Positions 10,076 to 29,248 of a stretch of DNA of 64,000 bases are shown here, piece after piece. Numbering within the stretch: position 1 is the first letter of the stretch; each line of letters opens with the position of its first letter. The notes under the pieces are model-generated. The model worked only from the letters and a program-made list of their open reading frames with translations. It had not been told where the DNA came from and did no database searches. The position numbers were made by a program, and so were the translations under genes. The DNA is from Chloroflexi bacterium OLB15 (lineage in GTDB: Bacteria; Chloroflexota; Anaerolineae; Aggregatilineales; Phototrophicaceae), in the NCBI GenBank assembly GCA_001567085.1, contig LMZS01000177.1, positions 1 to 64,000 of the forward strand. The letters are read 5' to 3'.

Positions 10076-10593
10076 TTAATTGCGGCTGTGCCCGTTCATC
10101 GAGGCCACCGTCAGCTTACCCTTATGGTTGGCCGGGGTGATCATTTCATCGCTGTAGTCAGGTTCCAACGTTTGCAGGGTGGTTAGCACACGCAGGAAGG
10201 TTTCAAAATCGTCGCCATTGAACAGCACGCGAATCTGCTTATCAAGCGCGGCGCTGGTTGAAACCACTTCTTCGCGAAGCTTTTCAGCTTCCTTAGTCAG
10301 ATAAATATGCACCGCGCGGCGGTCAGTGGGGTCAGGGCGGCGTTCGATTAAGCCTTCTGCTGCAACTTGTCCAGATTCGGGGTAAAAGAAGTCGCGGCGC
10401 GGCCAACAGCGCGTGCCAGTTCAGAAGCATGCTGCCCATCGCGTTCGTACAGCGCACGCAGGATATACCATTCAATGATGGTCAGACCCTGAGGCTGCGC
10501 CACACTGCCGAACAACTGATCGAGATTGCGCAGGGCGATATCCAGATTGCACCACACGGAACCGTTAAAACGAAGTTGGGTTGTCTGTACCAT
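10076..10593 (-). CDS. MarR-family transcriptional regulator, frameshifted
   Basis: MarR proteins are dimeric winged-helix repressors that usually respond to small phenolic or oxidant signals. The first part reads GLTIIEWYILRALYERDGQHASELARAVGRAATSFTPNLDKL, the MarR helix-turn-helix. After a break the text continues AEGLIERRPDPTDRRAVHIYLT, the family's wing with the DPTDRR signature, then a helical C-terminus. One extra C on the plus strand at the single C at 10363 joins the two frames into about 172 residues. The start at 10593 is preceded, in its own direction, by the tandem repeat GTAAACGGTAAAC, which could be part of an operator. Target genes are unknown; it stands alone next to a 334-base AT-rich gap. 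Confidence 0.85.
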
Positions 10594-10927
10594 TGTGTTT
10601 ACCGTTTACAACTATACACTTCCAGATGATATAATGAATTTTATCACAAGTTGTTTTCTAAATAAAGGTTACTATGAATAATAGCATCTTTACAGTAAAG
10701 AGATCGTAGGTTTTCAGGTAAATAATTAATTTTCAACTTAACGTTGGTTAAATCTCAACTTTCATATTCAATTTATACGTTTATATATTGCCGAATAATA
10801 GAAATGCCAGCCGCCCTACTTACAATGTTCACATTGGCAATAGGATGCACAAAGAACATTAGATTCATATTGAGGGTCGTTTAGCGTTTGCCCAGTGAAA
10901 TTTCGGACAAAGGCTAGCCCCAAACGG
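10594..10927. other. AT-rich intergenic region, no gene seen
   Basis: About 330 bases between marR and the EamA transporter gene. It is clearly more AT-rich than its surroundings, with runs such as AAATAATTAATTTT. I find no convincing coding frame, tRNA or strong hairpin apart from the weak one at 10914-10931. It presumably holds the marR promoter and operator near 10600-10660. Confidence 0.6.
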
Positions 10928-11917: not shown

Positions 11918-13432
11918 CTAGGGCGCGATAGCCGCCACAAGCGCAACGTGATCGGTCAAACCGATGATCAAGACAGGTAAAATGCCGATCAGCAGGGTTC
12001 CGCCAAAAGCGATAGCAGTTGCCCACTGCACAGACGGCATATAGCCCGGCGCCGGGTCAGCAGGTTCAGTTTCGGCATCTCGCAAGTACATGTTCACGAT
12101 CACGCGCACATAGTAGTATGCGCTGATCACGCTGGTGATCACGCCGATGATTGCCAACCAGACCAGACCGGCATTTAGTGTAGCCGAGAAAACAAACGCC
12201 TTGCCGATGAAACCACTGGTCAGGGGAACACCTGTCAGGCTGAGCATGAAGATCGCCATCATGATCGCCATTGCTGGCCGTGATTTGCCCAGTCCAACAA
12301 AGTCTTCAAGATCAGAGCCGCCGTTCACACGTTCAACCCCTATGGCAACCGCAAACGCGCCGAGATTGGTGAACATGTAGGCAACCAGATAGATTAACGC
12401 GGCGCGGGTCGCCTGATTTTCAACGCCAGGCGTGCCAGCAGCGGCCAGCGCCATCATCACATAACCGGCATTGGCAATCGAAGAATACGCCAGCAGCCGT
12501 TTGATATTATTTTGCGCGACAGCGACGATATTACCGACGATCACCGTAAGCGCGGCAACGATGGCGATGATATTTTGCCAGAGCGCAGGATCGCCCTGCA
12601 CAAAAGTGAGCGAAGACATACCGACGATTAGAATACGCAGCAGGGCGCCAAAACCGCCAATCTTAGCGGCAACGCTCATGAACGCCGTCACCGGTGTGGG
12701 CGCGCCTTCATAAACGTCAGGCGTCCACTCATGAAACGGTACTGCGGCAACTTTGAAGCCCATGCCCACAATCAGCAGGCCTGCGCCGAGCACCAGGAAA
12801 TATTGCAGGCTGTCATTGGCCGCTGCTACCGCGCCAACCGCCGCATAGATCTCATTCAGGTTGGTCGTGCCGGTTGCGCCGTAAACCATCGTCGCGCCAA
12901 AAACGAAGAAGGCGCTGGCGAACGCGCCCAGCAGAAAGTATTTCAAACCAGCCTCTTCCGAGCGGATTTCTGGAGCGCGGAAGGCGGCCATTACGTAAAG
13001 CGGAATGCTGAGCAGTTCAAGCGCCACGAAGATCATGATCAAGTCGTTGGCGGCGACCATGAACATCACGCCGGCAGTTACGAGGAGCAGAAGTATGTAA
13101 TACTCGCCGCGCTCAATCTCAACGCGCTTCAGATAGTCTATGCTAAGCAGCACCGTGATGAAGGCGGTTGCCAGCACAACGAGGTTGAGAAAACCCGTGA
13201 ACTGATCGGCAACGTACATACCCATGAAGCTATCGCCTGTCTGGTTGTATACCAGCAAATTGGCGACGAAAGCAACGGCAAGGCCTGCTGCCGCCAGCCC
13301 TGCGGTTATTATCTTGCGGCTCCGTGGAACCAACAGGTCAACGAGCAGCAGAATACAGGCCCACGCTGCCACGATAATCGCGGGCAGCGCGGCGCCAATA
13401 TTGAGGCTCTCCAGTGAAGGGATTTCAAGCAT
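11918..13432 (-). CDS. nuoN: NADH-quinone oxidoreductase subunit N
   Basis: NuoN is one of three antiporter-like proton-pumping subunits of complex I in the membrane arm. The 504-residue length and about 14 hydrophobic segments are normal. Family motifs include FVALELLSIPLYVMAAF with the key Glu of helix 5, KYFLLGAFASAFFVFGA, FKVAAVPFHEWTPDVYEGAPTPVTAF with its pumping Lys and loop motif, and KRLLAYSSIANAGY. It is the last gene of the nuoJ-N unit, 12 bases after the nuoM stop, and is followed by the terminator at 11861-11886. The frame is intact, unlike nuoL and nuoM beside it. Confidence 0.97.
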   Translation of the reverse strand: MLEIPSLESLNIGAALPAIIVAAWACILLLVDLLVPRSRKIITAGLAAAGLAVAFVANLLVYNQTGDSFMGMYVADQFTGFLNLVVLATAFITVLLSIDYLKRVEIERGEYYILLLLVTAGVMFMVAANDLIMIFVALELLSIPLYVMAAFRAPEIRSEEAGLKYFLLGAFASAFFVFGATMVYGATGTTNLNEIYAAVGAVAAANDSLQYFLVLGAGLLIVGMGFKVAAVPFHEWTPDVYEGAPTPVTAFMSVAAKIGGFGALLRILIVGMSSLTFVQGDPALWQNIIAIVAALTVIVGNIVAVAQNNIKRLLAYSSIANAGYVMMALAAAGTPGVENQATRAALIYLVAYMFTNLGAFAVAIGVERVNGGSDLEDFVGLGKSRPAMAIMMAIFMLSLTGVPLTSGFIGKAFVFSATLNAGLVWLAIIGVITSVISAYYYVRVIVNMYLRDAETEPADPAPGYMPSVQWATAIAFGGTLLIGILPVLIIGLTDHVALVAAIAP

Positions 13433-13444
13433 GGATATGTCCCT

Positions 13445-15018
13445 TTATTCGCCCGTCTGCGCTTCTGGCAGTTGGGCGATGGTGGTTACGGCATTTTCAG
13501 GAGCAACCTGCGCGACAAGATGCTCAACCGTCGTATCCGATGGCTTCATAAAGATGTACGGCTGAATACCGATCAAGACGATCAAGATAAGAATCGGCAC
13601 CATGACCGCGATTTCATTCCATTCCAGCTTCGGCAGGTGCTTATTCTCTTCCTTGCTTAACTCGCCCATGAAGATTTTCTGGAAGAAGTAAAGCATGTAG
13701 ATGGCTGCCAAAATGATGCCCAGCGCAGCAGCAAGCGAGTAGAACAGGCCAAGCACGGTGCTGCCAATTGAGCCTAACAAGATGGTAAATTCGCCAACAA
13801 AGCCGTTCAGGCCGGGCATACCCATACTGCTGAGGACGACCACCAGCGAGATTGCGCCGAGCAGCGGCATTGACTTCCAGAGGCCGCCGAAGGCCGAAAG
13901 TTCCTTTGTGTGACGGCGTTCATAAAGCATACCGACGATCAAGAAGAGGCCGCCTGTGCTGACGCCGTGATTGACCATCTGGATGATAGCGCCCTGAATA
14001 CCGGCGGCGTTCAGCGCAAAGATGCCGAGAACGATAAAGCCCATGTGGCTGACCGATGAGTAAGCCACCAGCTTTTTCATGTCGGTTTGCGCGTAGCTGA
14101 CCCATGCGCCGTAGATAATGCCGATGACCGCCAGAACGGCAATCACTGGCGCCCACCCAACGCTGGCTTCAGGGAACATCGGCAGGCAGAAACGCAGCAT
14201 ACCGTAAGTGCCCATCTTAAGCAGAACTGCCGCCAGAATGACGGAGCCAGCCGTTGGCGCTTGCACGTGCGCATCCGGCAGCCACGAGTGCAGCGGCCAA
14301 ACCGGAACTTTAATCGCAAAAGCGATGAAGAAGCCTAAGAACAGGACGGCCTGCGTACTGAACAAATCGCTGAACGGGAATACGATGGTGCCATTCTGAA
14401 CACCTGCGACGATTTCTGGCACAGCAAACGTGCCTGCGTTCACGCCGACATACAACAAAGCCAGCAGCATGAGCACCGAACCAGCCATCGTATATAAGAA
14501 GAACTTGACGGCTGCGTATACCCGCTTCTCGCCGCCCCAGATACCAATGAGGAAATACATTGGCACCAGCGTCACTTCCCAGAAGATGAAGAAGATGATC
14601 AGGTCTTGCGCCACGAACACGCCGATCATGGCAAATTCGAGCAGCAGCATGAACAGATAGTACAGCTTTTCACGCCCGCGCTCGTGGATAACATGGGCGC
14701 TGAACGATGCTAGTACCCCAATCGGCATCATGAACGTGGTCAGGATGACAAGGATCAGGTTGAGGCCGTCTACACCCACGTAGTAACTGATACCATATTG
14801 GGGCAGCCAGTCTGCGCGCTGAACCATTTGCAGCGCGGGGTTGCCAGAGTCGTAACCTGCCCACAGCAACAGCGAGAGGACAAAGGTGACAAGCGTCGTC
14901 CCCAGCGTCAAATACTTGATGTTGCGGCTCTGTCCGTTTGGCACGAAGAGCAGGATAAAAAACCCGATCAGTGTAGGAACAATACCACTGTTACGAGTGA
15001 CAGACCGGAATTTTCCAT
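13445..15018 (-). CDS. nuoM: NADH-quinone oxidoreductase subunit M, frameshifted near the start
   Basis: NuoM is a proton-pumping antiporter-like subunit of the complex I membrane arm. The long open part (from 14944, 499 residues) lacks the first helix. Reading from the ATG at 15018, which follows GGCGGAGAGAAAG after the nuoL stop, gives MENSGLSLVTVVLFL. Adding one C at the single C (minus strand) at 14973 continues as PLIGFFILLFVPNGQ into the open frame, which is the expected helix 1. Core motifs are FFIFWEVTLVPMYFLIGIWG with the helix 5 Glu, IKVPVWPLHSWLPDAHVQAPTAGSV and KKLVAYSSVSHMGF. The total would be about 524 residues, normal for NuoM. Confidence 0.95.
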
Positions 15019-15036
15019 AACTTTCTCTCCGCCCAG

Positions 15037-17436
15037 TTAGCCGCGTTGCAGCAGCGGCAGCAAAATCACTACAATGACCAGCACCACCCCAATCAGGAAG
15101 GTGAGCGCATAGGTACGAACATAGCCCGTTTGAATTTGTCGCAATTCGACACTAACCCATTTCGTGATGCGCCCTACTCCATTCACTGCCCCATCAATAA
15201 TGCCCAGATCAACCGGATTGCCCAGGAAGCGCGCAACCGCATTGAAGCCCCTTAGCAGCACCTGATCATGGAAGTAATCGTGCAGGAAGCGCCAATCCAC
15301 CACATCTGCCAAAAATTGCGCGGCGAGTTCAAATGGCCGCACGAACACACGCCCATAGAACTGATCCCAGTACATGCGCGCATTGGCAAGCGACCAGAAC
15401 GGCGCGGCAGTAGGCACAAGCTCCAACGGATCACGGCCAGTTTCAACAATCTGGCGATGCTTGTAGATATTGTGCGCAACCAGAAATGCGCCGATTGAAA
15501 CCACAGTAGCGAAAATAGCAATCAACGGCTGAAACTCGCCAACATGCGCGTAGGCAACGGAGTATTCCAACCGGCTTGTAAACAGATGCGCGCCGAACAG
15601 ATTATCCAGCCCCAGTACGTTTGATGGCGTGTTCAGGAAGCCTGCAAAAATGCTGCAAATGGCGAGCAGGATCAAGGGGATAGCGATCAGGCGGCCATTT
15701 TCCGGCGCGTGGGCTGCGGCCTCTGTGCGCGGGTTTCCAAGGAACACCAGCTCAATTTGACGCCACATATAGAAAGCGGTGAACCCCGCGGCAATCAGCA
15801 GCGCGCCAAACACAATGTAGCCAGACAGCTTGTTATCAACCAAACCGGCCAGCCATGCATCTGCCAGCAGCTCATCTTTTGACCAGAAACCGGCCAGCGG
15901 GAAGATGCCTGACAGCGCCAGCGTGGCGATCAGATATGTCCAGAAGGTGATCGGCAGGCGTTTACGCAAGCCGCCCATGTTACGCATGTCCTGCGGGTCG
16001 AACGGTTCTTCTTCATGATCGTGCGCATCATGACCATGATCGTCGTGACCATGAGCATGCGCGTGATGATGGCCGTGTTCAACGGCATGAATGACCGAGC
16101 CGCTGCCGAGAAACAAGAGCGCCTTGAAAAACGCATGCGTAACCAGATGGAACATGGCAGCGGCATACGCGCCGACGCGACCAGCGCCACCATGAAGCCA
16201 AGCTGGCTGACGGTGGAGTATGCCAGCACACGTTTAATGTCCCACTGGCCGATGCCGATGTAACCACCCACCAACGCCGTTGCCGCGCCGATGACCGCCA
16301 CGACGAACGAGGTAAATTCAGCGTGATGGAACATCACATTTGAACGCACCATGATGTAAACGCCAGCCGTGACCATCGTCGCAGCATGGATTAGCGCGCT
16401 CGCAGGGGTTGGGCCGGCCATTGCATCCGGAAGCCATGTAAACAGCGGTATCTGAGCCGATTTACCGGTGACGCCCAGCACCAAGAACAGCGTGATAATC
16501 GTTAGCCATGTCGTAAACGGCATGGTGATTGGGCCGATGGTGATTTCGCGGCCTTCCTCAATAAAAACGCTCGGTCTGGTTGAAAACACCTAGCTGTTCG
16601 GTGATGATATGATCGTTATTGGTGAAAACTGGCTGCGCAACCTCGCCTTCAGCGGCCGCTTCGCCATGTTCCCCTTCCTGAGCAAAACTGACGACGGGCT
16701 TGTGCGCGCCTTCTTCTTCTGCCGCCGCTTCATGATCGGCTTCACCCGTCTCATGCGCGCCAGATTCTGCGAGATGCACATTGACCACTTCCTGCGGGCT
16801 GTAGTAGTCGAGCGTGCCGAATGTCCAGAACATCAGCAGCATGCTCATCACCACGCCAAAGTCACCGACGCGGTTCAGCACCATCGCTTTGCGGGCGGCC
16901 ATACTGTTACGCCAGCCAACACCGTGCGTGCGGGCATACCAGAAACCGATCAACAGGAACGAGCATACGCCCACGCCTTCCCAGCCTACAAACATCATCA
17001 GGAAGTTGTTGGCCGTGACCAGAAGCAGCATAAAGGCGAGGAACATATTGAGATATGCGAAGTAACGGTGAAAATGGTCATCACCGTGCATATAGCTGAT
17101 GGAGTAGATATGAATAAGCGAGCCAATGCTGGTGATGATCAGCATCATGGTGACGCTTAGCGTATCTACCCGGAACTGCCAGGGAACGTGCACATTTCCA
17201 GAAGGCAGCACCAACCAGCCATCAAGCAGCGGGGGGTTGACCACCGCAGCCTGAAAACCACTTTGTTCCAGATAGATTGCCAACAGCACCGCGACGCCGA
17301 AAGCCAACGCGGATGCTACCGTAGCAACCAAACCCACCCATTTTTCGCCCACTTTTGCGCCCCAGGCAACATTGAAGAGCGCGCCCAGAGCGGGGATGAG
17401 AATAATGAGTGGTACGAGCTGAGGATAATGTTCCAT
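15037..17436 (-). CDS. nuoL: NADH-quinone oxidoreductase subunit L, two frameshifts
   Basis: NuoL is the distal proton-pumping subunit of complex I, with the long lateral helix. The gene is read in three frames. The first part (17436-16568) reads to NQTER; removing one A from the five A at 16563-16567 gives [13 protein letters not shown]. The second part holds [34 protein letters not shown] and [18 protein letters not shown]. Adding one G (minus strand) at 16178 continues [33 protein letters not shown]. The third part runs to the stop at 15037. Two insertions stand out: an acidic Glu/Ala/His stretch of about 60 residues (16610-16797) and a His-rich stretch [20 protein letters not shown] (16010-16080) before the usual QDMRNMGGL. 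The joined protein would be about 799 residues, longer than the usual 600-700. Confidence 0.95.
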
Positions 17437-17481
17437 ATTTGTTCCTTCGGCAGCGCGCCCTATATGGCAGGCGGCGTTCCG

Positions 17482-17784
17482 TTATCCTTTCATCTCGTGG
17501 AGTTCGTCAATATTGATGCTGCGTTTGGTGCGGAAAATAGTCACGATCAACGCCAACCCAACAGCAACTTCTGCCGCCGCCACAGTGATGATGAAGAACA
17601 CAAATAATTGACCTGTATCATTCGCCCAGTGCCGGGCAAAGGCCACCAGCGCAAGGTTTGTAGCATTCAGCATCAATTCAATCGCCATAAACACCAAAAT
17701 GGCGTTTCGTCGCAGCAGCACGCCCATTGCCCCGAGCGTGAAGAGAACGATGCTGAGCATGATGTAAGATTCAGTCTGAACCAC
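17482..17784 (-). CDS. nuoK: NADH-quinone oxidoreductase subunit K
   Basis: NuoK is a small three-helix subunit of the proton pathway near the complex I heel. The open frame extends upstream to 17910, but the GTG at 17784 is preferred. It is preceded by GAGAGGG at 6-7 bases and yields exactly 100 residues, the family norm; upstream codons are basic, overlap nuoJ and are not hydrophobic. The protein reads [36 protein letters not shown], with the conserved Glu of helix 2 (AIELMLN), then Glu in helix 3 ([13 protein letters not shown]). The frame is intact. It sits between nuoJ and nuoL as in other bacteria. Confidence 0.95.
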
Positions 17785-17818
17785 AATAACCCTCTCTGTC
17801 AGCGCCCCAACGCCGCCG

Positions 17819-19090
17819 CTAGTTCGCCGGTTCCGCTTCTGTTTCAGGGGTAGATTGCGGAAGCTGTGGTACATCTTCCTCAACCACTTCCTGCCCCACC
17901 TGCGCCGCAATCACGTTCGTCAATGAACGGCTTACCTTGCGCCGCTGCTGCTGCTTACGCTTCGGCTTCAGCTCGCGCTGAACGATCACAATCACCCCAA
18001 CCATCGCCGCCAGCAAGAGCAGGCCTAAAACCTGGAACGGCAGCATGAATTGGGTAAACAGCGAATAGCCGATTGCGCGCGGGCTGCCAAATTCTGCCTG
18101 AGCGGTGGTCGAGACCACGACAGGCAGCACCCGCGAGTCAGTTTCGGACAGCGTTTCATCGGCAAGCACAATCAAGGTATTCTGCTCGCTGCGAAGCGGC
18201 TGATCGGTCAGATCAACCACTGTGACTGAAGCATCATCTCTACGCACGACGCGCCAATTCACATCGCCAGCGGGAACCTCTACGCTGGAAACGGTGTGCG
18301 CCGGAAGATTAGCAATAATGGTATTGACGTAAACATCGGTGTTCGTATCCAGCGAATGCGCATCAACCAGCGTGACCGCCTCTGTGCCGGTAATCGCATT
18401 AAAGATAGTCACGCGCGTATCGCCATCGCGGAACACGGGTGAGAAATCCTGCTCGGCAAGCGCCACTTCAGGCTGTTCGCCAGTGCCATAGGCTATGATA
18501 TTGGTGAATACGCCTTCGGTGGATGTAAAGGCCGCCGTCACTTCGCCGCCAGAGATCGGGCGGACGCTCACGGTGAATTGACCGGATTGAATCTGTGAAA
18601 ACTCAGTCGCCTGACCAAAGGGAAGGTCATCGGCAACCAGCAGGCTGCCTACATAAACATCAATCGGGCCGTTGTTAGCAGCATTTACTACGCGCACTTC
18701 GGCTGGAGCAAGTGCAGGGGTTTTGTCGTCAATATTGCCCTGAATAGTCGCCAGACCGATGGTGAACAGCAGGCCTAAAGCCAACGCCAGCACAACGGGG
18801 GTAAACCAGCGAAAACGGCTTTTTGCAGGGCCAGGATCGGCGGTGCCCAGCTTTTCCGCGCCAAGCAGCATGATCACGAATAAGAACAGCACCATGATCG
18901 CGCCGGCATAGACCGTGATCTGGATCATTGCCAGAAATGGCGAATTCAGCATCAGGAAAAGCAGCGAGATGCCGACCATCGTCACGATCAAAAAGAGCGC
19001 GCTGTGAACAGCATTCTCGCTCAACAGCATCATGACGGCTGCGGCAACTGCCACCGCGCCGACAATGATGAATAGCCACAATTCTGTCAT
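17819..19090 (-). CDS. nuoJ: NADH-quinone oxidoreductase subunit J with a large inserted beta domain
   Basis: NuoJ is a membrane-arm subunit of complex I whose third helix helps gate proton transfer. Standard NuoJ has about 165-200 residues; this one has 423. Helices 1-4 are recognisable at about 3-23, 27-48, 52-76 ([21 protein letters not shown], the family hallmark) and 96-116. Helix 5 ([22 protein letters not shown]) is at 349-371, preceded by the usual GYSLFTQF. Between helices 4 and 5, residues about 118-338 form an extra, helix-poor region. It contains [20 protein letters not shown] and a second similar unit starting DTRVTIFNA with [16 protein letters not shown], resembling tandem DUF4397 domains. 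With known NuoJ topology this insert faces outside, and the basic tail [14 protein letters not shown] is inside. The frame is intact, so the insert is not an error. Confidence 0.93.
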
Positions 19091-19127
19091 TGTCGAACAA
19101 TCCTATCGGGCGCAATCGTCCTTGTGC

Positions 19128-19156
19128 AGTCTAACACAAACCTACCCCAAGTTCAA
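19128..19156 (-). promoter_or_regulatory. Promoter of the nuoJ-N unit
   Basis: Read on the minus strand, TTGAAC (19156-19151), 17 bases, then TAGACT (19133-19128). It lies between the terminator after nuoI and the nuoJ start at 19090, as expected if nuoJKLMN is a separate transcription unit. Confidence 0.6.
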
Positions 19157-19204
19157 AAATCGCGAGCGCCCAAATCAAGCGAAAAACACCAATAAATCTG
19201 CAAA

Positions 19205-19243
19205 GAAAAAGCACCCTGCACAGGCCGCCAAGGGTGCTTTTTC
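19205..19243 (-). terminator. Strong intrinsic terminator between nuoI and nuoJ
   Basis: GAAAAAGCACCCT (19205-19217) and AGGGTGCTTTTTC (19231-19243) form a perfect 13-pair inverted repeat with a 13-base loop. On the minus strand the RNA ends in a T-run right after the GC-rich stem, 12 bases past the nuoI stop. Confidence 0.88.
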
Positions 19244-19254
19244 GAGCCGCGTCA

Positions 19255-19749
19255 TTAACGCGGGTTTTCCATATCCGGTATTGAGCGGGTATAAACACCC
19301 GGCTCTACTTCACGCGGCGTACCTTCCTTGCCTTCCAGCGGTGGATCAATCAACATGTTTTTGGTGAAGATGGCATCATCGCGATCAGTAAAGCTGAGTT
19401 GATGCTCATGACCGAGCTGAATCGCCTGGGTCGGGCATGCATCTTCGCAGTAGCCGCAGAAAATGCAGCGCAGCATATTGATTTCGTAGGTCTTGGCATA
19501 ACGCTCGCCAGGGCTGTAACGCTCTTCATCGGTATTTTCAGCCGCTTCTACCCAGATAGCATCTGCCGGGCAAGCCGCAGCGCACAGCGAGCAGCCAATA
19601 CATTTTTCGAGGCCATTTTCGTAGCGGCGCAGATGATGGCGCCCTTTATAACGCTGGTTGAAGGGCTGAACCTGCTCCGGATACTGGAGCGTAATCGGCT
19701 CTTCGAGAACGTGTTTGAACGTGGTTGCGAAACCCCGCAAAATGTTCAT
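19255..19749 (-). CDS. nuoI: NADH-quinone oxidoreductase subunit I
   Basis: NuoI carries iron-sulfur clusters N6a and N6b, which hand electrons to NuoB. The 164-residue protein has both four-cysteine ferredoxin motifs: CIGCSLCAAACPADAIWV near residue 51 and CIFCGYCEDACPTQAIQLG near residue 94. The N-terminal amphipathic stretch (MNILRGFATTFKHVLEEP) fits membrane-surface binding. It starts four bases after the nuoH stop and is the last gene of the nuoA-I unit, followed at once by the terminator at 19205-19243. Confidence 0.97.
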   Translation of the reverse strand: MNILRGFATTFKHVLEEPITLQYPEQVQPFNQRYKGRHHLRRYENGLEKCIGCSLCAAACPADAIWVEAAENTDEERYSPGERYAKTYEINMLRCIFCGYCEDACPTQAIQLGHEHQLSFTDRDDAIFTKNMLIDPPLEGKEGTPREVEPGVYTRSIPDMENPR

Positions 19750-19752
19750 GGC

Positions 19753-21441
19753 TTAACCTTTGTTAATCATCACAAAGCTGTTACTGTGCTGCGTTGGCGT
19801 TATCAGACGGTACAATGGCCGTCTCTTCGCTAGTTGCTCCGCCGGCTTTTCAGGCGCAAGCTGAGCCAGTTTATCGAGCAATTTTAGCAGACCGTTGTAA
19901 AGCACGAACGGCACCGCCAGCAGCCCGCCTAGCGCCTGTACAAGCGCATAGCCGATTCCCCCACGCTCCCCCGTGATAATCGGGTCAGTGGCAAGGTCTT
20001 CGATTTCAGCGTCAGGCTGATTCTCACTGCTGCGCCGCACCAGCAATCCGCCCACAATCAGCACCGCCAGCAGCACCACCGCCGAGAAGATGCCGTAAGC
20101 AACGGGCGAACCCAGCGCATCGCCAATGAGAATTGAAACCGCCGTCCAGCCCACCGCAACCATCGCCAGCGGCAGCATGACTTTCCAGCCAAGCGCCATC
20201 AGGCGATCATAGCGGATACGCGGCAGGGTGGCGCGGATCCAGACCATGATGAACAGGAAGATCAGGATTTTCCCGACCAGCACAATCGGGCCAAGAATAG
20301 GCACTGCCTGCACCAAACCGAAACCATCGTTATAGCCGCCAAGATACAGCGAAGCGACAACCGCGCTCACGCCGATCATGCTGAGGTATTCAGCCATCAT
20401 AAAGCTGGCGAATTTCATACCGCTGTACTCAGTCATGAAACCCTGCGTCAATTCCTGTTCCGCTTCAGGCAAGTCAAACGGTGAGCGATTAAGCTCTGCC
20501 AGCAGCGCGATGAAGAGGATGACGAAAGCGACAGGATTCTGGAAGATAAACCAGTCATAGAAATAGGTCTGCGCGTTGATGATGTCGCCAACGCTCATGC
20601 TGCCGACCACCATGATCGGCACAGCCATCGTTAAACCAAGGCTCAATTCGTAGCTCAACATCTGCGCAGATGCGCGCAGCGCGCCAAGAGCCGCATATTT
20701 ATTATTGCTAGACCAGCCCGCCAGCACGACGCCATACGTTCCAATGCTGGTGATTGCCAGCAGCCACAGTACGCCAACGTTGGGGTCTGCCAAGCCGAGG
20801 GGAACGCTGTACACGTTACCATCGAACCAGGGGATGAGCAGATCAGGGCCTAACGGCACCACCGCCAGCAGAATGACGGCAGGAACAACTTTGAGAATGG
20901 GGGCGATGCGGTATACCCACTTATCGGCACCCGCAGGCTCAATATCTTCCTTAAAAATCAGTTTCACGCCGTCGGCAGCAGGCTGAAGCAAACCCGCTGG
21001 CCCCACGCGGTTCGGGCCAGTACGCTGCTGAAAGAACGCAATCAAGCGGCGTTCCAACAGCGTTAAGTAGGCAAAACTGGTTAAGAACACGAAGAAAAAT
21101 ATCAGCGAAAAGATGATCGCCTGCACCGTGCTGCATCCCGATTCGGTGCGGCAATCAATCGCCTGCGAATAATCCACGCGATTGTTGTTGAAGATGAAAT
21201 TCAACACATTAGACAGCGCATCACCCAGCGCCTGCTGGTTCGGCTCAAGAATTGACCAGCCCACCAGCGTAAGCACCACCAGAATGACGGTAATGATTCC
21301 GCCGACAAAAAGCAGCGCCAGCAGGTTTGCCCAGGGGTAGAATCGTTCCGGCACAACGTTATCGCGAAACTGAACATACCCGTGAACGAGTTCGTTCAGT
21401 GGGCCGCGACGCTTGCCTGGCGTCGAAGACACCGTCGCCAT
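19753..21441 (-). CDS. nuoH: NADH-quinone oxidoreductase subunit H
   Basis: NuoH forms the quinone chamber and E-channel of complex I. The open frame begins at 21456, but the ATG at 21441 follows GAGAGGTAAAACT and is the better start (about 562 residues). Typical NuoH has 330-450 residues. This one has an extended N-terminus (about 45 soluble residues before helix 1), an extra stretch carrying two Cys (CRTESGCST) after helix 1, and a longer C-terminus. The core is conserved: ERRLIAFFQQRTGPNRVGPAGLLQPAADGVKLIFKED, AELNRSPFDLPEAEQELTQGFMTEYSGMKFA, and WIRATLPRIRYDRLM. The nuoG stop lies four bases upstream. Confidence 0.96.
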   Translation of the reverse strand: MATVSSTPGKRRGPLNELVHGYVQFRDNVVPERFYPWANLLALLFVGGIITVILVVLTLVGWSILEPNQQALGDALSNVLNFIFNNNRVDYSQAIDCRTESGCSTVQAIIFSLIFFFVFLTSFAYLTLLERRLIAFFQQRTGPNRVGPAGLLQPAADGVKLIFKEDIEPAGADKWVYRIAPILKVVPAVILLAVVPLGPDLLIPWFDGNVYSVPLGLADPNVGVLWLLAITSIGTYGVVLAGWSSNNKYAALGALRASAQMLSYELSLGLTMAVPIMVVGSMSVGDIINAQTYFYDWFIFQNPVAFVILFIALLAELNRSPFDLPEAEQELTQGFMTEYSGMKFASFMMAEYLSMIGVSAVVASLYLGGYNDGFGLVQAVPILGPIVLVGKILIFLFIMVWIRATLPRIRYDRLMALGWKVMLPLAMVAVGWTAVSILIGDALGSPVAYGIFSAVVLLAVLIVGGLLVRRSSENQPDAEIEDLATDPIITGERGGIGYALVQALGGLLAVPFVLYNGLLKLLDKLAQLAPEKPAEQLAKRRPLYRLITPTQHSNSFVMINKG

Positions 21442-21445
21442 AGTT

Positions 21446-23950
21446 TTACCTCTCAACCTTCGTTACTGTGCCAGATGTAATGGTTAACGCAGACGCGGCT
21501 TCCTGCAAATTACACGGAAGCAGAACGCTTCCCTTCGGAGCAGCGCCGTTCACATGAGCGCGCACATTCACAGAATGACCGGCACCCACGTCAACTTTTA
21601 CGACATCGCCGTCTTTAAGATTCAGCTTAACGGCATCTTCAGCATTGATCTCTACATAAGGATCGGCGATGCGCGCAGCCATCATATGTGCTTCACTTGG
21701 CTGGAACACACGCTCGCGATTGTACAGGCGGATGGTCGGCACGACCAACAGTTCGCCCTTCGATACCTTGACTGCTTTTTCCGGCTTCACATCGCCGGCT
21801 TCTACTGCCCCGCCTTCATCGGCAGCAGTGGCGATTTGCACCCCCAGACCACCTGTATTGGCGTAGGCGGTGCCACCATAATACAGATCGTCTCCGCCAA
21901 CCAGCGGGAACTGTGGTTCAACCTTCGCCAGTTCAGGGAACTTACAACCGGCGTAAGCGGGAATATTTGCAACAATCTCGTTCATCACCTGCGCAGCAGA
22001 GAGCTTCGCTTTGCCCTGCCCCGACTTTTCAGCAATACGGGCTAGCGCCTGCCATGCGGGCAGCGATTCACCCATCGCCCCCTGCGCCGTGTAGAAACGC
22101 TGAACGCGGCGCTCGGCATTGGTGAACGAACCATCACGCTCGGCAAAGCTTTGAATGGGCAGCACGACCTTTGACTGTTCGGCGGCAACGTCCATAAACA
22201 GGCTCAGGCTGATGACCGATTCAACTTTAGAGAGCCATTCTGCTGCTGCCGGATCGTCAGATACAACATCTGCCTGCGCGAGGATCAAGACTTTTGGCGG
22301 GTTCTGGATGATATCCTGCGTCGCTTCCGGCGAGAAACCGGTGTAGTGCAAGCCCAGCATATTTGAGCCACGGAACACGCCGACCAAGCCGTTATTAACT
22401 TTGCCCGTATGTCCGGTTTCAATCAGGAAATTGGCTGCGGCTTGCATTAGCGCGCGGCTGCCAGCCAGCGTCAAGCCTTCCGCGCCAGCGAAGATGACCA
22501 GATTCTTCGCGCTCGCGAGTTTTTCCGCGATTTCCGCGTTGTCTTTACGAATGTTTGCCAACATATCGGCGGCGTGGCCGGTTTCATAGGTGATTGTTGC
22601 CGAAGCAAAATCATCCATGCGGGTGTGACGGGCATTCGCGACAACCAGATACGCCCCGCGATCCGCCGCCACCTTCGTGCGCAGGCGGAACATCGGCGCT
22701 TCTTCTTCGAGATCAGAAGCGATTACGAGAATAGCATCGCCTGCGCCAAGGCTGCCAAGATTTGAACCTTTGCCAATGCCCACCTGCGCAACCAGATCAG
22801 CGCCAGTATGCGTAGGCGGCCATGCCCCAAGACGCTCACTCCCCAAGCCTTTAAGCAGCTGCGCCAGCGTCCACGCATCTTCATTAGAGAGCGAGGTTCC
22901 GGCGATAGCCGCCACGCTGCCGTTCGCTTCCTGAAGCAGTTTGGCGGCGGCGGCAGTAGCTTCGCTCCAGGTTTCCCGTGAAAGCGAGCCAGCGCCGTTA
23001 CGAATCATCGGCTCAAGCAAGCGCTCATTGCTGCGTGAGAAGTGATGCCCGAAGCGTCCTTTATCGCACATCCAGATTTCATTCACCTGCTCATTCTGGC
23101 GGGGCATCATGCGCTTGATCATCACGCGGCCATCAAATTCACGATCCAACCGCGTGTTGGCGGTTGTGTTGCAGCCGACCGGGCAATGTGGGCAGATGCT
23201 GGGGACGCTGTTCAGCTCCCAGGGGCGCGCGCCAAAACGGAAGTCAACAGTAGTTAGCGCGCCTACAGGGCAAATATCTGTCGTGTTCCCTGAGAAATAG
23301 CTGTCAAAGCCGGGATCGCTGACCGTAATGATTTGCAAATCGCGACCGCGTTCGTGGAAGGCCAACACATCGTCGCCAGCCACTTCTGACTGAAAACGTA
23401 TACAGCGGGCACACTGAATGCAGCGTTCCTCATCAAGCACGATCAAGTCGCCTAACGGCGTGTTCTTGTCGAGGTGCTTTTTATCCTCAAAAGTCATGCG
23501 GCTAGTGCCGGGACCGAATTCCATCGTCTGGTTTTGCAGCGGGCATTCGCCGCCTTTATCGCAAACCGGGCAGTCCAGCGGGTGACTGGTGAGCAGAAAC
23601 TCAAGAATGTTATTGCGACCAGATTCCACCATCTCGGTTGTGGTGCGCAGCACCAGTCCATCAGATGCGGTCATGGTACAGGCAGTTTGCAGCTTGGGCA
23701 TCCAGCGAATTTGCGGGTTGCCGTTTTCATCCAACAACACTTCGCCTGTTGCGCGATCTTTCTGGATAGTTCCTGCTTCAACCAGACACATACGGCACAT
23801 GCCGACTGGTTTCATCTTAGGGTGATAGCAGAAGACAGGAATGATCACGCCGACGTGTTTAGCAGCATCAACCAGATTCATTCCCGGCGGGAATTCAAAT
23901 TCATGTCCGTCAATAATGACTTTTGCCAGCTTCGTCATTGCAGTGACCAT
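21446..23950 (-). CDS. nuoG: NADH-quinone oxidoreductase subunit G
   Basis: NuoG is the largest peripheral-arm subunit and carries several iron-sulfur clusters in a molybdopterin-oxidoreductase-like scaffold. The 834-residue protein starts with a [2Fe-2S] ferredoxin domain (GVIIPVFCYHPKMKPVGMCRMCLVEAG). It continues with the Cys-His ligand region (HPLDCPVCDKGGECPLQNQ), two four-Cys sites (CIQCARCIRFQSE and the TTDICPVGAL group), then CPHCPVGCNTT, probably the N7-type site. The molybdopterin-like body and a beta-rich C-terminal domain follow. No molybdenum cofactor role is expected in complex I. The start at 23950 or the ATG four codons later are both possible. Confidence 0.96.
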   Translation of the reverse strand: MVTAMTKLAKVIIDGHEFEFPPGMNLVDAAKHVGVIIPVFCYHPKMKPVGMCRMCLVEAGTIQKDRATGEVLLDENGNPQIRWMPKLQTACTMTASDGLVLRTTTEMVESGRNNILEFLLTSHPLDCPVCDKGGECPLQNQTMEFGPGTSRMTFEDKKHLDKNTPLGDLIVLDEERCIQCARCIRFQSEVAGDDVLAFHERGRDLQIITVSDPGFDSYFSGNTTDICPVGALTTVDFRFGARPWELNSVPSICPHCPVGCNTTANTRLDREFDGRVMIKRMMPRQNEQVNEIWMCDKGRFGHHFSRSNERLLEPMIRNGAGSLSRETWSEATAAAAKLLQEANGSVAAIAGTSLSNEDAWTLAQLLKGLGSERLGAWPPTHTGADLVAQVGIGKGSNLGSLGAGDAILVIASDLEEEAPMFRLRTKVAADRGAYLVVANARHTRMDDFASATITYETGHAADMLANIRKDNAEIAEKLASAKNLVIFAGAEGLTLAGSRALMQAAANFLIETGHTGKVNNGLVGVFRGSNMLGLHYTGFSPEATQDIIQNPPKVLILAQADVVSDDPAAAEWLSKVESVISLSLFMDVAAEQSKVVLPIQSFAERDGSFTNAERRVQRFYTAQGAMGESLPAWQALARIAEKSGQGKAKLSAAQVMNEIVANIPAYAGCKFPELAKVEPQFPLVGGDDLYYGGTAYANTGGLGVQIATAADEGGAVEAGDVKPEKAVKVSKGELLVVPTIRLYNRERVFQPSEAHMMAARIADPYVEINAEDAVKLNLKDGDVVKVDVGAGHSVNVRAHVNGAAPKGSVLLPCNLQEAASALTITSGTVTKVER

Positions 23951-24043
23951 GCAGTCTTACTCCGGCTTACAACTATGCCGATACTGTAGCGGAAAGCCCG
24001 CCGACTTTCTACGGTAACGCAGGTTAAGCCACGCTCAACCCTC

Positions 24044-24556
24044 TTAAAAACCTTGCTTCTGGCGCGCATCGCGCAAACCCGCGTAAGCGCGGTCTTGCAC
24101 AGTTTGCGCCACGATGCCCCAGCGGCTTTTAGCCACCTGATCTGAGGCCATTTCCAACGCGCGCTGGAAATCTGCTTCGGCAGCGGCGTATTCCTTCAAC
24201 TTAAACAGAAGTTCGCCGCGAAAAACATAATTCACAGCCCCTTCTGGATGGGCATCAATGGCGGCGTTCAGCTCATGTAACGCCTTTTCGTCTTTAGAAA
24301 GCTGCCGGTGAGCCTCTTGCTCTGGAGTCTCGGTACTGGCCTCCGCAGGCTCATCCCAACGCTTGCTAGCGGATTCATCGGCTTCTGCTTCGTGTGCTAA
24401 CGCCACCAGATGTTCCTGCTGAGCAGCTTCGTTTCCTGAAATATCACCGATGTTTGAAAGCCCACCTATTTCAGAAACCAGCAAGTCTTGTTCAGCAGAC
24501 AAGGCATCCAGATTCTGCGCCTGCTCGTCGCCCCCAGACCGCAGTTCGTCCGTCAC
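24044..24556 (-). CDS. TPR-containing protein encoded inside the nuo operon
   Basis: This 170-residue protein sits between nuoF and nuoG, two bases after the nuoF stop, so it is almost certainly cotranscribed with complex I genes. The first 90 residues are acidic and low in hydrophobics (Glu, Ala, Gln rich), probably disordered. Residues about 90-140 form one or two tetratricopeptide repeats: ALHELNAAIDAHPEGAVNYVFRGELL then KEYAAAEADFQRALEMA. TPRs mediate protein-protein contact. No signal peptide or membrane segment is seen, so it is cytoplasmic. It is not a standard complex I subunit; a role in assembly or as an accessory subunit is a guess from position only. Confidence 0.75.
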   Translation of the reverse strand: MTDELRSGGDEQAQNLDALSAEQDLLVSEIGGLSNIGDISGNEAAQQEHLVALAHEAEADESASKRWDEPAEASTETPEQEAHRQLSKDEKALHELNAAIDAHPEGAVNYVFRGELLFKLKEYAAAEADFQRALEMASDQVAKSRWGIVAQTVQDRAYAGLRDARQKQGF

Positions 24557-24558
24557 CC

Positions 24559-25854
24559 CTAATGCCCCGCAACTACGACTGGCGCGGCAGTTCCATCCAG
24601 ACGCGCCTTGAAATCTTCAGGGAAATTCTTGATGGTATAGATGATCGGGTTGGCTGCGAATTCGCCTAGCGCGCACAGGGTCACCCCCTGCATATTACGA
24701 GCGACGCTGGCGATCAGGTCAACATCTTTTTCCTGCCCCTGCCCGCTCATGATGCGATCCAAAGTCTTGTCCAGCCAATAAGTGCCTTCGCGGCAAGGCG
24801 TGCACTTTCCGCAGCTTTCATGCTTAAAGAATTTGGTGATCTTGGCAGCAACCCACGTCATGTCCGTATCTTCATCCATAACGATGATTGAAGCTGAGCC
24901 TAGAATCGAGCCGATTTTAGCGAAATCTTCATAGGTCATCGGCGTATCCAGAAGCGGATCGTCGTTGCCAGCGAAGCGGATAACCGGGCCAGAGCCGCCC
25001 GAAGGCAGCACGCCTTTTAGCTGCTTGCCGTTAGCGATGCCGCCCGCATGGGTAAAGAGCAGTTCGCGCAGCGTCGTTCCAAGCGGAAGCTCATAATTAC
25101 CCGGCTTTTCGACATGCCCGCTAACACAAAACACTTTGGTTCCGGGGCTTTGCTCGGTGCCAATTTTCTTGTATTCGTCGGCGCCGTTGTTGATAATCCA
25201 GGGCACGTTAGTCAGCGTTTCAACGTTGTTGATCACCGACGGTTCGCCATAAAGGCCGCCGCCCTTATTGGCCGGGAATGGTGGGCGCACACGGGGCATG
25301 CCCAATTTACCTTCAAGGCTCTCCAGCAGCGCGCTCTCTTCACCGCAGATATAGGCGCCCGCGCCAAGATGCGTGTACACCATGCAATTCCAGCCGCTAC
25401 CAGCAATGTTATCGCCTACCAGCCCCTTCTTACGCGCATCTTCAATATGTTGATCGAGGCTTTGGGCTAAATCCCAAAATTCGCCGCGCAGATAGATATA
25501 GACCGCTGTAGCCTGAATCGCCCACGCCGCAATCAGCGAGCCTTCGATCAATTGGTGCGGGTTGTTCTCGATGATCTGGCGATCTTTGAAGGTGCCGGTT
25601 TCGCTTTCGTCAGCGTTTACAACCACATATTTAACTGGCTCTGACTGCGGAATAAAGCTCCACTTTACGCCCGTCGGGAAACCAGCGCCGCCGCGCCCAC
25701 GCAGGTTAGAAGCCTTGACGAGATCAATCACTTCCGCAGGCTTCATCTTCAGCGCTTTTTTGAGCGCGTCATAACCGCCATGTTTCAGATACACAGGCAG
25801 TTCGTGGATATTCGGCACATCTTTTTCGCGATAGATAATGTTCAAATTTGCCAT
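24559..25854 (-). CDS. nuoF: NADH-quinone oxidoreductase subunit F
   Basis: NuoF binds NADH and FMN and holds cluster N3, the entry point for electrons. The 431-residue length is normal. Motifs: the glycine-rich NADH/FMN site GRGGAGFPTGVKWSF near residue 53, YVVVNADESETGTFKDR, GAGAYICGEESALLESLEG, and the cluster ligands ESCGKCTPCREG near residue 347. It follows nuoE by 18 bases. The presence of E, F and G shows a full NADH-oxidising complex I rather than the 11-subunit form. Confidence 0.98.
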   Translation of the reverse strand: MANLNIIYREKDVPNIHELPVYLKHGGYDALKKALKMKPAEVIDLVKASNLRGRGGAGFPTGVKWSFIPQSEPVKYVVVNADESETGTFKDRQIIENNPHQLIEGSLIAAWAIQATAVYIYLRGEFWDLAQSLDQHIEDARKKGLVGDNIAGSGWNCMVYTHLGAGAYICGEESALLESLEGKLGMPRVRPPFPANKGGGLYGEPSVINNVETLTNVPWIINNGADEYKKIGTEQSPGTKVFCVSGHVEKPGNYELPLGTTLRELLFTHAGGIANGKQLKGVLPSGGSGPVIRFAGNDDPLLDTPMTYEDFAKIGSILGSASIIVMDEDTDMTWVAAKITKFFKHESCGKCTPCREGTYWLDKTLDRIMSGQGQEKDVDLIASVARNMQGVTLCALGEFAANPIIYTIKNFPEDFKARLDGTAAPVVVAGH

Positions 25855-25872
25855 CTCGTATCCGTCCGGCCT

Positions 25873-26415
25873 TTACGGCTTGGAGTCGCTCTTTTCTTTC
25901 GTCTTTTTGGCTTTAGCCGGCTTAGCAGCTTCATTTGCTTGCGCCGCTTCCTCGCGCCAGTGGTCTAACAGCGGCACCATCTTTTCCATATCCAGATTTT
26001 CGACGAAGTGAAAATTGCACTGCATCATCGGCGCTTTGTCGCAAGCGGCCAGGCACATTACATGTTCAACCGTGAACACCCCGTCTTCGGTGGTGCCGCC
26101 ATCATCAACGCCAAGATATTCTTTCAAATCGGCATAGAATTTGTCAGCGCCGCGTAAAGCACAGGCAAGGTCTGTACACACCTGAAGCCAGTATTTACCC
26201 TTTGGATTCTCAGAATACATGGTGTAGAAGCCGGCAATCGAGCGTACCTGCGTCGGATCCATGTCGCACAGAGCGGCGACTTCGGCTACGCCTTCATCGT
26301 TTACATAGCCGTATTCTTCCTGCGCAATATACAGCAGCGGCATCACAGCCGAGCGCTTAGTCGGATATTTCGAGAAGATATATTCGATTTTGGAGGCGTA
26401 CTTTTCCGCAAGCAT
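25873..26415 (-). CDS. nuoE: NADH-quinone oxidoreductase subunit E
   Basis: NuoE is the 24-kDa type subunit with a thioredoxin-like fold and the [2Fe-2S] cluster N1a. The 180-residue protein shows the helical N-terminus with SAVMPLLYIAQEEYGYVNDE, then the cluster ligands CTDLAC and, about 40 residues on, CLAAC. The C-terminus ends in a Lys/Ala-rich tail (AKPAKAKKTKEK). It is preceded by a 105-base gap after nuoD containing an AT-rich inverted repeat. Confidence 0.97.
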   Translation of the reverse strand: MLAEKYASKIEYIFSKYPTKRSAVMPLLYIAQEEYGYVNDEGVAEVAALCDMDPTQVRSIAGFYTMYSENPKGKYWLQVCTDLACALRGADKFYADLKEYLGVDDGGTTEDGVFTVEHVMCLAACDKAPMMQCNFHFVENLDMEKMVPLLDHWREEAAQANEAAKPAKAKKTKEKSDSKP

Positions 26416-26455
26416 TACGTTTCCTTTGCAGAAACGAGTAAAAGGTTGACAGTAA

Positions 26456-26494
26456 AAAGTTAAAAGTGTTCCCTACATTACGCCTTTTAACTTT
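26456..26494. repeat. AT-rich inverted repeat between nuoD and nuoE
   Basis: AAAGTTAAAAG (26456-26466) and CTTTTAACTTT (26484-26494) are perfect inverted copies, 17 bases apart. A further CTTTTAACCC at 26505-26514 and AAAAGGTTGAC at about 26440 resemble the same motif. There is no T-tract in the right place for a terminator; it may be a small hairpin influencing RNA stability. Confidence 0.6.
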
Positions 26495-26520
26495 CGCCCG
26501 CTATCTTTTAACCCATCTCT

Positions 26521-27822
26521 TTACCTATCGCTATCCCCAAGCACGCAGTCAATGCTGCCCACAATGCCGATCAAGTCTGCAAGCATGTAACCGGAACACA
26601 GTTTGCCGAGCGCGCTAATATGCATAAATGAAGGCGTCTTGAAATGTACTCTGCGGGGCTTGTTGCCGCCTGTACCATGCAGGTAGCAGCCGATTTCACC
26701 GCGCGGGCTTTCAATCGCCACATACACTTCTTCATCTGGTACGGAATAGCCCTCCGTCCACAATTTGAAGTGATGGATTACCGCTTCCATGCTGCGCCCT
26801 AGCTCAGCGCGCGGCGGCGGCACAAACTTACGGTTATTTGAACGGAAGCCGCCCGAAGCTGAAGAGAGTTTCTTGATTGCCTGCTGGATGATCTTCACGC
26901 TTTCGCGCATCTCATGTACACGAATGATGTAACGATCAAACACATCACCATGTTCGCCAAGCGGCACGTTGAAGTCATAATTCTCATAGCCGCTGTACGG
27001 CATGGCTTTGCGAATATCGAAATTGACGCCGCTGCCACGCAGGCACGGGCCAGAGAGCGCCAGCGCAATCGCTTCTTCTGGTTCAATGACGCCAATACCC
27101 TCAGTACGATCCCGCCAGATCGGGTTATTGGTCAGCAGTTTTTCATAATCATCAATGCGATTCGGGAAATAGCCGAGAAATTTCTCAAGCGCAGGCAGGA
27201 AATCTTCGGGCAGATCACGCCACACGCCGCCGGGGCGAATGTAGCTGGTCATCATGCGCTGCCCGCCGAGCTTCTCGAACATATCGAGAATAAATTCACG
27301 CTCGCGGAAACAGTACAGGAAAACGCTCATCGCGCCCATGTCCATCGCATGCGTGCCCAGCCATACAAGGTGGCTGTTCAAGCGGGTAAGCTCAAGGCAA
27401 ATGACGCGGATCACCTGCGCCCGTTCGGGCACATCCAGCCCGGTCAGCTTTTCAACCGCCAGCGAAAAGACGGCGTTATTGCTCATCGGCGCAAGGTAAT
27501 CCATGCGGTCAGTGAGCGTGACGGCCTTTTCGTAGCTTTTACTCTCGATGTTCTTCTCGATGCCGGTATGCAGATAGCCGACATCTGGCAGACAGGTAAC
27601 AATTTCTTCGCCGTCTAATTCGAGCAGCAAGCGCAGCACGCCGTGTGTACTAGGATGATGCGGCCCCAGGTTGAGGAGCATCGTTTCGCCGGTAATTGCG
27701 CGATCAGAAACCAGCCCACGCAAATCTTCGAGGCTGCCTTCCCATGTTTGCCCCTGCCCCAGGGCATTTTCGGTAGCTTCAGGAATTTCAAGCGCCAGAG
27801 GGCGTTTGGATGTTGTCGCCAT
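26521..27822 (-). CDS. nuoD: NADH-quinone oxidoreductase subunit D
   Basis: NuoD, the 49-kDa type subunit, forms the quinone-binding pocket together with NuoB. The 433-residue length is slightly above the usual 400 because of about 45 leading residues with no clear motif. Conserved parts: LNLGPHHPSTHGVLR with the quinone-site His, GYLHTGIEKN, DRMDYLAPMSNN, RGSGVNFDIRKAMPYSGYENYDF, and ESPRGEIGCYLHGTGG near the C-terminus. The end IGSIDCVLGDSDR replaces the usual GS(I/L)D(I/P)V(L/M)GEVDR, a conservative change. It starts 14 bases after the nuoC stop. Confidence 0.98.
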   Translation of the reverse strand: MATTSKRPLALEIPEATENALGQGQTWEGSLEDLRGLVSDRAITGETMLLNLGPHHPSTHGVLRLLLELDGEEIVTCLPDVGYLHTGIEKNIESKSYEKAVTLTDRMDYLAPMSNNAVFSLAVEKLTGLDVPERAQVIRVICLELTRLNSHLVWLGTHAMDMGAMSVFLYCFREREFILDMFEKLGGQRMMTSYIRPGGVWRDLPEDFLPALEKFLGYFPNRIDDYEKLLTNNPIWRDRTEGIGVIEPEEAIALALSGPCLRGSGVNFDIRKAMPYSGYENYDFNVPLGEHGDVFDRYIIRVHEMRESVKIIQQAIKKLSSASGGFRSNNRKFVPPPRAELGRSMEAVIHHFKLWTEGYSVPDEEVYVAIESPRGEIGCYLHGTGGNKPRRVHFKTPSFMHISALGKLCSGYMLADLIGIVGSIDCVLGDSDR

Positions 27823-27836
27823 GAGGTTCTCCGCAC

Positions 27837-28391
27837 CTAATCCTTCGCGTACGGCTTGTGTTTATTAATTTCGTCGGCATTGAACGAGAACATGATGGTT
27901 TCATAGCCGAGCGGGTAATCACGCCGGTGCGGGTGTCCCTCCCAATCCTCAGGCATCAGCACCCGCCGCAGGTTAGGATGCCCTTCAAAAGGAATGCCCA
28001 TCATGTCAAAAATTTCACGCTCAAGCCAGTTTGCGCCGTCCCACAGGGTCGTGATTGTAGGGATCGCTACATCCTCATCAACAAACGTCTTGAGGCGGAT
28101 ACGGCGGTTATAAAGCAGCGAATACAGGTGATAAGATACGCCGAAACGTGCCGGACGATCACCGTAATCGCCATAGCCCTTGATCGGGTCAAAATAGTCA
28201 ACCGCGCTGATATCTGACAGATAGTTAAAGATCAATCCGCGCGTGTCACGAAGGAAACGGACAGCGCGTTCAACGTCAGCCGGATCAACAATGAGCGTTA
28301 GCTCACCGCGAAACTCATGCGTTCCTTTGAGAACGCCAGGCAGCAGTTCTTCAAAGGCGACTGCGGGGGCAAGCGCGTCTGGAATATGCAT
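27837..28391 (-). CDS. nuoC: NADH-quinone oxidoreductase subunit C
   Basis: NuoC is the 30-kDa type peripheral subunit. The 184-residue protein ends with the family signature: DGANWLEREIFDMMGIPFEGHPNLRRVLMPEDWEGHPHRRDYPLGYE, where WxEREx(F/Y)DMxGxxFxxHPxLxRILxP is diagnostic. A central beta domain precedes it. It is separate from nuoD here, not fused as in Escherichia coli. It follows the nuoB stop by three bases. Confidence 0.97.
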   Translation of the reverse strand: MHIPDALAPAVAFEELLPGVLKGTHEFRGELTLIVDPADVERAVRFLRDTRGLIFNYLSDISAVDYFDPIKGYGDYGDRPARFGVSYHLYSLLYNRRIRLKTFVDEDVAIPTITTLWDGANWLEREIFDMMGIPFEGHPNLRRVLMPEDWEGHPHRRDYPLGYETIMFSFNADEINKHKPYAKD

Positions 28392-28394
28392 AAC

Positions 28395-28916
28395 TTACCT
28401 CGCGCCCTCAACAACCCAATTCTTCAAACGTTCACCCTGAACACGTTCGTGCAGGGTCAGAATACCGTGTATCAACTGCTCAGGACGTGGGGGGCAGCCA
28501 GCCACATAGACATCTACAGGGATGATTTCATCAACGCCCTGCACGATGGCATAGTTGTTGTATACGCCTCCACAAGATGCGCAGTCGCCCATCGAAATCA
28601 CATAGCGCGGCGCGGCCATCTGATCGTAAAGCTGGCGAATAACCGGCGCCATCTTACGGGTTACGCGGCCAGCCACGATGATTAAGTCGCTTTGGCGAGG
28701 GCTAGCCCGGTTTAATTCCATGCCGAAGCGCGACAGGTCGTAGTTCCCGGCCTGAGTGCTCATCATTTCAATCGCGCAGCAGGCCAACCCGAACAGCAAC
28801 GGCCACATCGCGCCAGTACGCGCCCAGTTAACCGCCACATCGAGGGTGGTGGTCACGACGCCAAGATCGCCGAGTTTGGATGAAACTACTCCCATTCCAG
28901 CGCCCCTATTCTCCAT
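28395..28916 (-). CDS. nuoB: NADH-quinone oxidoreductase subunit B
   Basis: NuoB carries cluster N2, which reduces quinone. The 173-residue frame has [12 protein letters not shown] with the tandem Cys pair near residue 46, then [33 protein letters not shown] and [14 protein letters not shown], giving the remaining two Cys ligands. The frame opens at 28916, overlapping nuoA by 31 bases; the ATG at 28895 ([10 protein letters not shown]), preceded by AGGGGCG, is an equally good start and shortens the overlap to 10 bases. Overlap implies translational coupling with nuoA. Confidence 0.97.
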
Positions 28917-29248
28917 TCATAAATCAGGCCAATGGTTAGCACAGTGATGAAAATGCCCATCGTGACGAGCGCATACAAACCCATCTCGCGGAACACCACC
29001 GCCCACGGCAGGAAAAAAACAACTTCGATGTCAAACAAGATAAACAGGATAGCAACCAGGAAAAAGCGTATGGAATAGCGCCGGGCAGCAGTGCCAATCG
29101 GCTTCATACCGCTTTCATAGGGAGCAATCTTACGCGATGTCGGCTTCCAGGGACCAAACAGCCGCGAAATTAGCGAAATGATAATGGCGATCACTGTCGC
29201 GATGATCACAAGCACTAATATGGGCGCAAATTCGTTGAGTGCATCCAT
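28886..29248 (-). CDS. nuoA: NADH-quinone oxidoreductase subunit A
   Basis: NuoA is a three-helix subunit at the heel of complex I near the quinone channel. The 120-residue length is standard. It reads [22 protein letters not shown], then the loop [41 protein letters not shown], with the diagnostic YE(S/C)G and FDIE(V/T) motifs and acidic residues. It is the first gene of the nuoA-I unit, about 50 bases after the predicted transcription start. Confidence 0.97.

Follow-up and report, generated by a model that had tools for sequence, protein, structure and literature searches.

The membrane subunits at the core of complex I are very conserved; where additional mass is familiar on the outer face of the enzyme, it belongs mainly to accessory subunits in mitochondria. 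NuoJ/ND6 chains retrieved by sequence from the PDB are 145-252 residues long, and the E. coli protein crosses the membrane in five helices, with its N-terminus outside and its C-terminus inside (PMC4604451); with this topology, the loop between helices 4 and 5 lies outside. Lineage-specific insertions in the core subunits of complex I have been described: the 94-residue G-loop of E. coli NuoG stabilises the complex and overlaps supernumerary subunits of other species (PMC8357420). In an unrelated host, the transporters PepT1 and PepT2 (SLC15A1/2), a tandem Ig-like insert forms an extracellular domain (ECD); this domain binds trypsin, and transport does not suffer appreciably when it is removed (PMC4597091).

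We analysed the nuoJ gene of Chloroflexi bacterium OLB15, which lies between nuoI and nuoK of a complex I operon in a window of 64,000 nucleotides (positions 1 to 64,000 of contig LMZS01000177.1; Table 1). The gene is a single stop-free frame on the minus strand, and hydropathy finds five membrane segments in its product, four before and one after an insert of about 215 residues between helices 4 and 5. Pfam matches Oxidored_q3 (NuoJ/ND6) in two stretches (E = 5.6e-37) with DUF4397 between them. The PF00499 score is 127.1 bits against a cut-off of 33.2, which places the protein in the family, and a search of the genome with PF00499 gives two split matches (profile positions 2-99 and 104-146), both in the nuoJ frame. 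The best NCBIfam score, 120.2 bits, falls below the NuoJ equivalog cut-off of 192; the insert splits the match, the NCBIfam NuoJ cut-offs are set for particular subfamilies, and the Pfam cut-off is the family definition used here. The protein is like other members of NuoJ/ND6 (PF00499) in its five helices, its helix 3 core, its place in the nuoA-N operon, and an FGSP..IG..LF motif just before helix 5 that is common to insert-free NuoJ proteins; it differs from them in the additional residues of the helix 4-5 loop. The 20-residue core of helix 3 is near-invariant across insert carriers, and thus NuoJ with the insert still resembles a working NuoJ. The initial annotation, made from the window alone, had recognised the five helices and the intact frame, and its placement of the insert, at 18077-18739 (residues 118-338), is right to within a few residues.

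Table 1. Features of the nuoJ locus in window coordinates; residue limits of the membrane helices are approximate.
Feature	Positions	Strand	Basis
nuoA-nuoN operon holding nuoJ, all 14 genes	11918..29248	minus	nuoA at 29248, nuoN at 11918
nuoJ with inserted DUF4397 module, 423 aa	17819..19090	minus	open frame, Pfam, PF00499 genome search
Membrane helix 1, residues 6-24	19019..19075	minus	hydropathy; AF2 helix 2-23
Membrane helix 2, residues 30-48	18947..19003	minus	hydropathy, AF2
Membrane helix 3, residues 58-76, with the 20-residue core	18863..18919	minus	hydropathy, alignment
Membrane helix 4, residues 98-116	18743..18799	minus	hydropathy, AF2
Inserted module, residues 120-334, two DUF4397-type units	18089..18733	minus	Pfam, alignment, dN/dS
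Unit 1, residues 131-216, predicted eight-stranded beta domain	18443..18700	minus	AF2 of insert, Foldseek
Unit 2, residues 225-331, diverged second DUF4397-type unit	18098..18418	minus	HHalign of unit 1 against unit 2
Membrane helix 5, residues 352-370	17981..18037	minus	hydropathy, alignment
Basic cytoplasmic C-terminal tail	17822..17980	minus	17% K+R

The insert itself belongs to a known domain family. It matches DUF4397 (PF14344) with E = 8.8e-15 and 55.8 bits against a gathering cut-off of 30.6, and a match at E 0.01 or better is found in all 34 of the insert-bearing NuoJ proteins scanned, which bears out the resemblance first proposed from the letters of the window. The main Pfam stretch covers residues 130-240, and unit 2 is weak by itself. 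When profiles of the two units (residues ~129-219 and 220-331, from 34 relatives) are aligned with each other by HHalign, they match with a probability of 94.7 (E = 6e-8), and both units start R-V-x-x-N-A; the two similar units with a V(R)VxNA-type start that had been noticed earlier are therefore real. A PHROGs search and a single-sequence PDB search with the insert returned nothing.

Structure prediction and comparison point to a beta-sandwich. Hydropathy finds no membrane segment inside the insert (largest 19-residue mean 0.96). The AF2 model of the insert, from three sequences, has an eight-stranded beta domain for unit 1 (pLDDT mostly 57-89 by block) and no resolved structure for unit 2; the model of full-length NuoJ, also from three sequences, has a mean pLDDT of 42 and is too poor to use. 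Foldseek with the insert model retrieves the PepT1 ECD (1.9e-4), Kustc1130 (4.3e-4), and both domains of AlgF (TM-score by target 0.71 and 0.73), and a profile search of PDB sequences, which is independent of the model, retrieves AlgF at 8.4e-5 (best domain alone 0.0041) and the PepT1 ECD marginally, at 0.013. Because these two independent methods agree, a beta-sandwich is credible for unit 1, and we infer this fold for both units. AlgF, an alginate biosynthesis protein (PDB 6czt, 6d10), thus resembles the insert in both profile and fold, with its tandem small beta domains, but is no part of a respiratory complex. The initial annotation had looked for a confident beta fold outside the membrane: the beta domain of unit 1 and the lack of a membrane helix agree with it. 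The opposite outcome, an insert made of membrane helices, is seen neither by hydropathy nor in the AF2 model of the insert.

The composition of the insert is informative about which side of the membrane it occupies. Among 34 relatives, the insert holds 5.5% K+R and 15% D+E, and the helix 3-4 loop and the C-terminal tail, both expected inside, hold 17% K+R. This charge bias and the topology of E. coli NuoJ both fit an insert that faces the outside of the membrane, as we infer here and as had been proposed from the known topology. We also considered that the acidic insert might be a proton-collecting antenna and rejected the idea: the DUF4397 proteins that this genome encodes for secretion are just as acidic, which suggests that acidity is a sign of where the domain lies and not of a special role with protons.

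Those secreted DUF4397 (PF14344) proteins, which occur alone or with fasciclin-like regions, share domain homology, tandem layout and acidity with the insert; the module of NuoJ is embedded in a core membrane subunit instead. One of this genome's proteins, encoded on contig C67, has two DUF4397 matches in tandem after a region that reads as fasciclin-like, and it aligns with the insert over query residues 123-330 at 30% identity. The simplest origin is probably that the tandem module was captured from secreted tandem-DUF4397 proteins of the kind that these bacteria also encode, with both the direction of transfer and the donor putative. The genome also encodes two near-identical secreted DUF4397 proteins (G000:C49:3785 and G000:C169:8379; L075 and L076), and the C49 copy adjoins what reads as an IS3-type transposase.

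To place the insert in the order, we relied on a census of 154 genomes, 145 of which have a NuoJ match at 1e-15. The insert is present in 15 of the 15 genomes of the genus and the same architecture is seen again in about 135 of the order's genomes, far beyond chance. In five families (f1, f3, f4, f7 and f8), essentially every nuo-operon NuoJ carries the full insert in frames of about 400-600 aa, a few frames being shorter where they are cut by contig ends; three other families (f2, f5 and f6) have an ordinary short NuoJ with no insert. Frames of 271, 314 and 336 aa (G778, G709 and G711) were considered as partial inserts that might represent evolutionary intermediates, but these are cut by contig ends. 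No carrier was found outside the order in samples of 298 genomes of the class and 400 of the phylum. The presence in relatives and the comparison with other Chloroflexota nuo loci that the initial annotation had called for are thus in its favour; no close relative in the genus lacks the insert, and the locus has no break here. An assembly or sequencing error that joined nuoJ to an unrelated DUF4397 gene might be suspected from the frameshift-like breaks in nuoL on the same contig; yet the nuoJ frame is unbroken, and separate assemblies from the genus, the family and the order show the same architecture, the named MAGs L034 and L035 among them. We regard such an artefact as exceedingly improbable and, given so many separate assemblies, effectively ruled out.

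In a tree of the NuoJ core, with the insert left out (50 rows, 160 columns), a single branch (support 92/85) has every carrier on the same side, and 90% of bootstraps recover one origin; L060 is among the carriers. In a larger tree, the 12 non-carriers other than G699 group together (84/83). A single gain is the best-supported and most economical history, read from a core alignment that is short.

Several other features of the operon and its surroundings deserve mention. nuoL (15037-17436, minus) runs over three overlapping frames (16558-17436, 15930-16589 and 15037-16155), and in relatives it is one frame (830 aa in G011); its two frameshifts are either sequencing or assembly errors or the mark of a recently broken gene. 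The gene for an ABC transporter, of multidrug/lipid exporter type (2372-4338, plus), is also split, into frames 2372-2794 and 2887-4338, and this speaks for indel errors in the assembly. NuoL has an acidic loop rich in Glu and His, together with a His-rich stretch of 24 residues (~16050-16800, minus), and both are present in G011 too. NuoH (19753-21456, minus, 567 aa) is much extended at its N-terminus, where the added part reads as one more membrane helix and then an outer loop containing CRTESGC. Between nuoF and nuoG there is a gene for a TPR-like protein (24044-24556, minus), with a counterpart there in relatives including G699. Farther away on the plus strand, a 487-aa protein (57048-58511) reads as two tandem DnaC/IstB-like ATPase domains, and a 921-aa protein (47015-49780) reads as a Ser/Thr kinase with Pro/Thr-rich repeats, PKD, and a sulfatase-modifying-factor-like domain. 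A second complex I set elsewhere in the genome (L046, G000:C47:70000-88078; 528-10604) comprises nuoA, H, J, K, L, M, M' and N only, with two NuoM and no B-G or I adjoining; Chloroflexus aurantiacus has a second nuo cluster with duplicated nuoM (PMC3150298). The NuoJ of the second set has no insert, and a special role of the insert linked to that set was rejected for this reason.

One member of family f3, G699, provides a natural deletion. Its genes nuoA to nuoL lie in order on one contig and their proteins match f3 closely, but its NuoJ has about 202 aa: the whole module is gone, and the flanking helices and C-terminal tail are f3-like. G699 nests within the insert-bearing f3 (clade support 93/98 in the larger tree), and this is a clean natural loss of the domain from an otherwise ordinary operon. 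The domain is thus not required for NuoJ to persist in such an operon, which suggests an accessory insert that does not belong to the proton machinery; the role on the proton-exit side that had been entertained earlier gains no support.

Where the insert is kept, it changes quickly under constraint. In eight pairs of relatives, dN/dS is 0.08-0.39 for the insert and 0.02-0.13 for the core, and by dN the insert exceeds the core about 4- to 10-fold or more in six of the pairs and is about equal to it in the two closest, with synonymous sites close to saturation in several. Judged by these substitution patterns, the insert is a real folded part under purifying selection in every pair tested, changing as surface domains do. 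Fast change with retention also fits a well-tolerated passenger, an idle domain that a permissive loop captured and that is kept by constrained folding and low cost, as do the variable length of the insert (which reaches about 310 residues in the aligned region) and its clean loss in one lineage; however, some 135 genomes in five families keep the domain, with one loss seen, and selection is purifying throughout, and we consider this explanation unlikely. Near-universal retention in five families could instead reflect a domain that is packed against the outside of the membrane arm (NuoJ/A/H/K/N) in place of accessory subunits, much as the NuoG loop serves the peripheral arm; lineage-specific ordered insertions that stabilise complex I are a precedent for it (PMC8357420). 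The NuoG G-loop is likewise a lineage-specific insertion in a core subunit, but it lies on the cytoplasmic peripheral arm and belongs to no known domain family. A stabilising role sits poorly with an insert that changes several-fold faster than the core in most pairs, that has few near-invariant residues, unlike a tight interface with conserved neighbours, and that is cleanly lost in G699 with nuoA-L otherwise present; docking agrees better with the rapid change and the natural loss, and we hold a stabiliser to be somewhat unlikely.

The reading that we favour is docking. The canonical NuoJ of a 14-gene complex I would have gained, in an ancestor within one Chloroflexota order, a ready-made tandem DUF4397 module (an immunoglobulin/transthyretin-like beta-sandwich) in its outward helix 4-5 loop. 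Projecting from the outer face, this module would serve as an accessory domain for docking and would hold or tether a cell-envelope or respiratory partner beside complex I, taking no part in proton transfer and leaving a core catalysis that does not need it. We propose docking or tethering because of the analogy with PepT1 and PepT2, in which the ECD likewise consists of tandem Ig-like beta domains set into a single outward loop of a membrane protein that is itself canonical; the PepT1 ECD gives the best structure match to unit 1, and its dispensability agrees with the natural deletion in G699. There are also differences, in that the host protein is unrelated, the sequence match is marginal, and trypsin binding is a feature of PepT. 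By this analogy, we hypothesise that an external Ig-like module docks a partner; that an accessory outward module borrowed from secreted proteins does so in this NuoJ has, in our estimate, about an even chance, and the poor full-length AF2 model and the lack of structure for unit 2 count against it. More tentatively, a built-in docking module of this kind may recruit a partner from the envelope or the respiratory chain, such as alternative complex III, an oxidase or a wall-bound protein, into a lineage-specific supercomplex or an anchored respiratory patch.

A search of the open-access literature for DUF4397 or for inserted domains in NuoJ found nothing relevant. Within that literature, the earlier impression that no such complex I subunit has been described holds, and the combination of this known subunit with this known domain family was not found described. 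These results indicate that a folded external module was added, most likely once, to a core subunit of complex I and that most of the order has kept it. What sits on the outer face of a bacterial complex I thereby becomes directly testable, with the natural deletion in G699 as a ready comparison for its insert-bearing relatives, and DUF4397, a family of unknown function, gains a defined setting beside a known machine.
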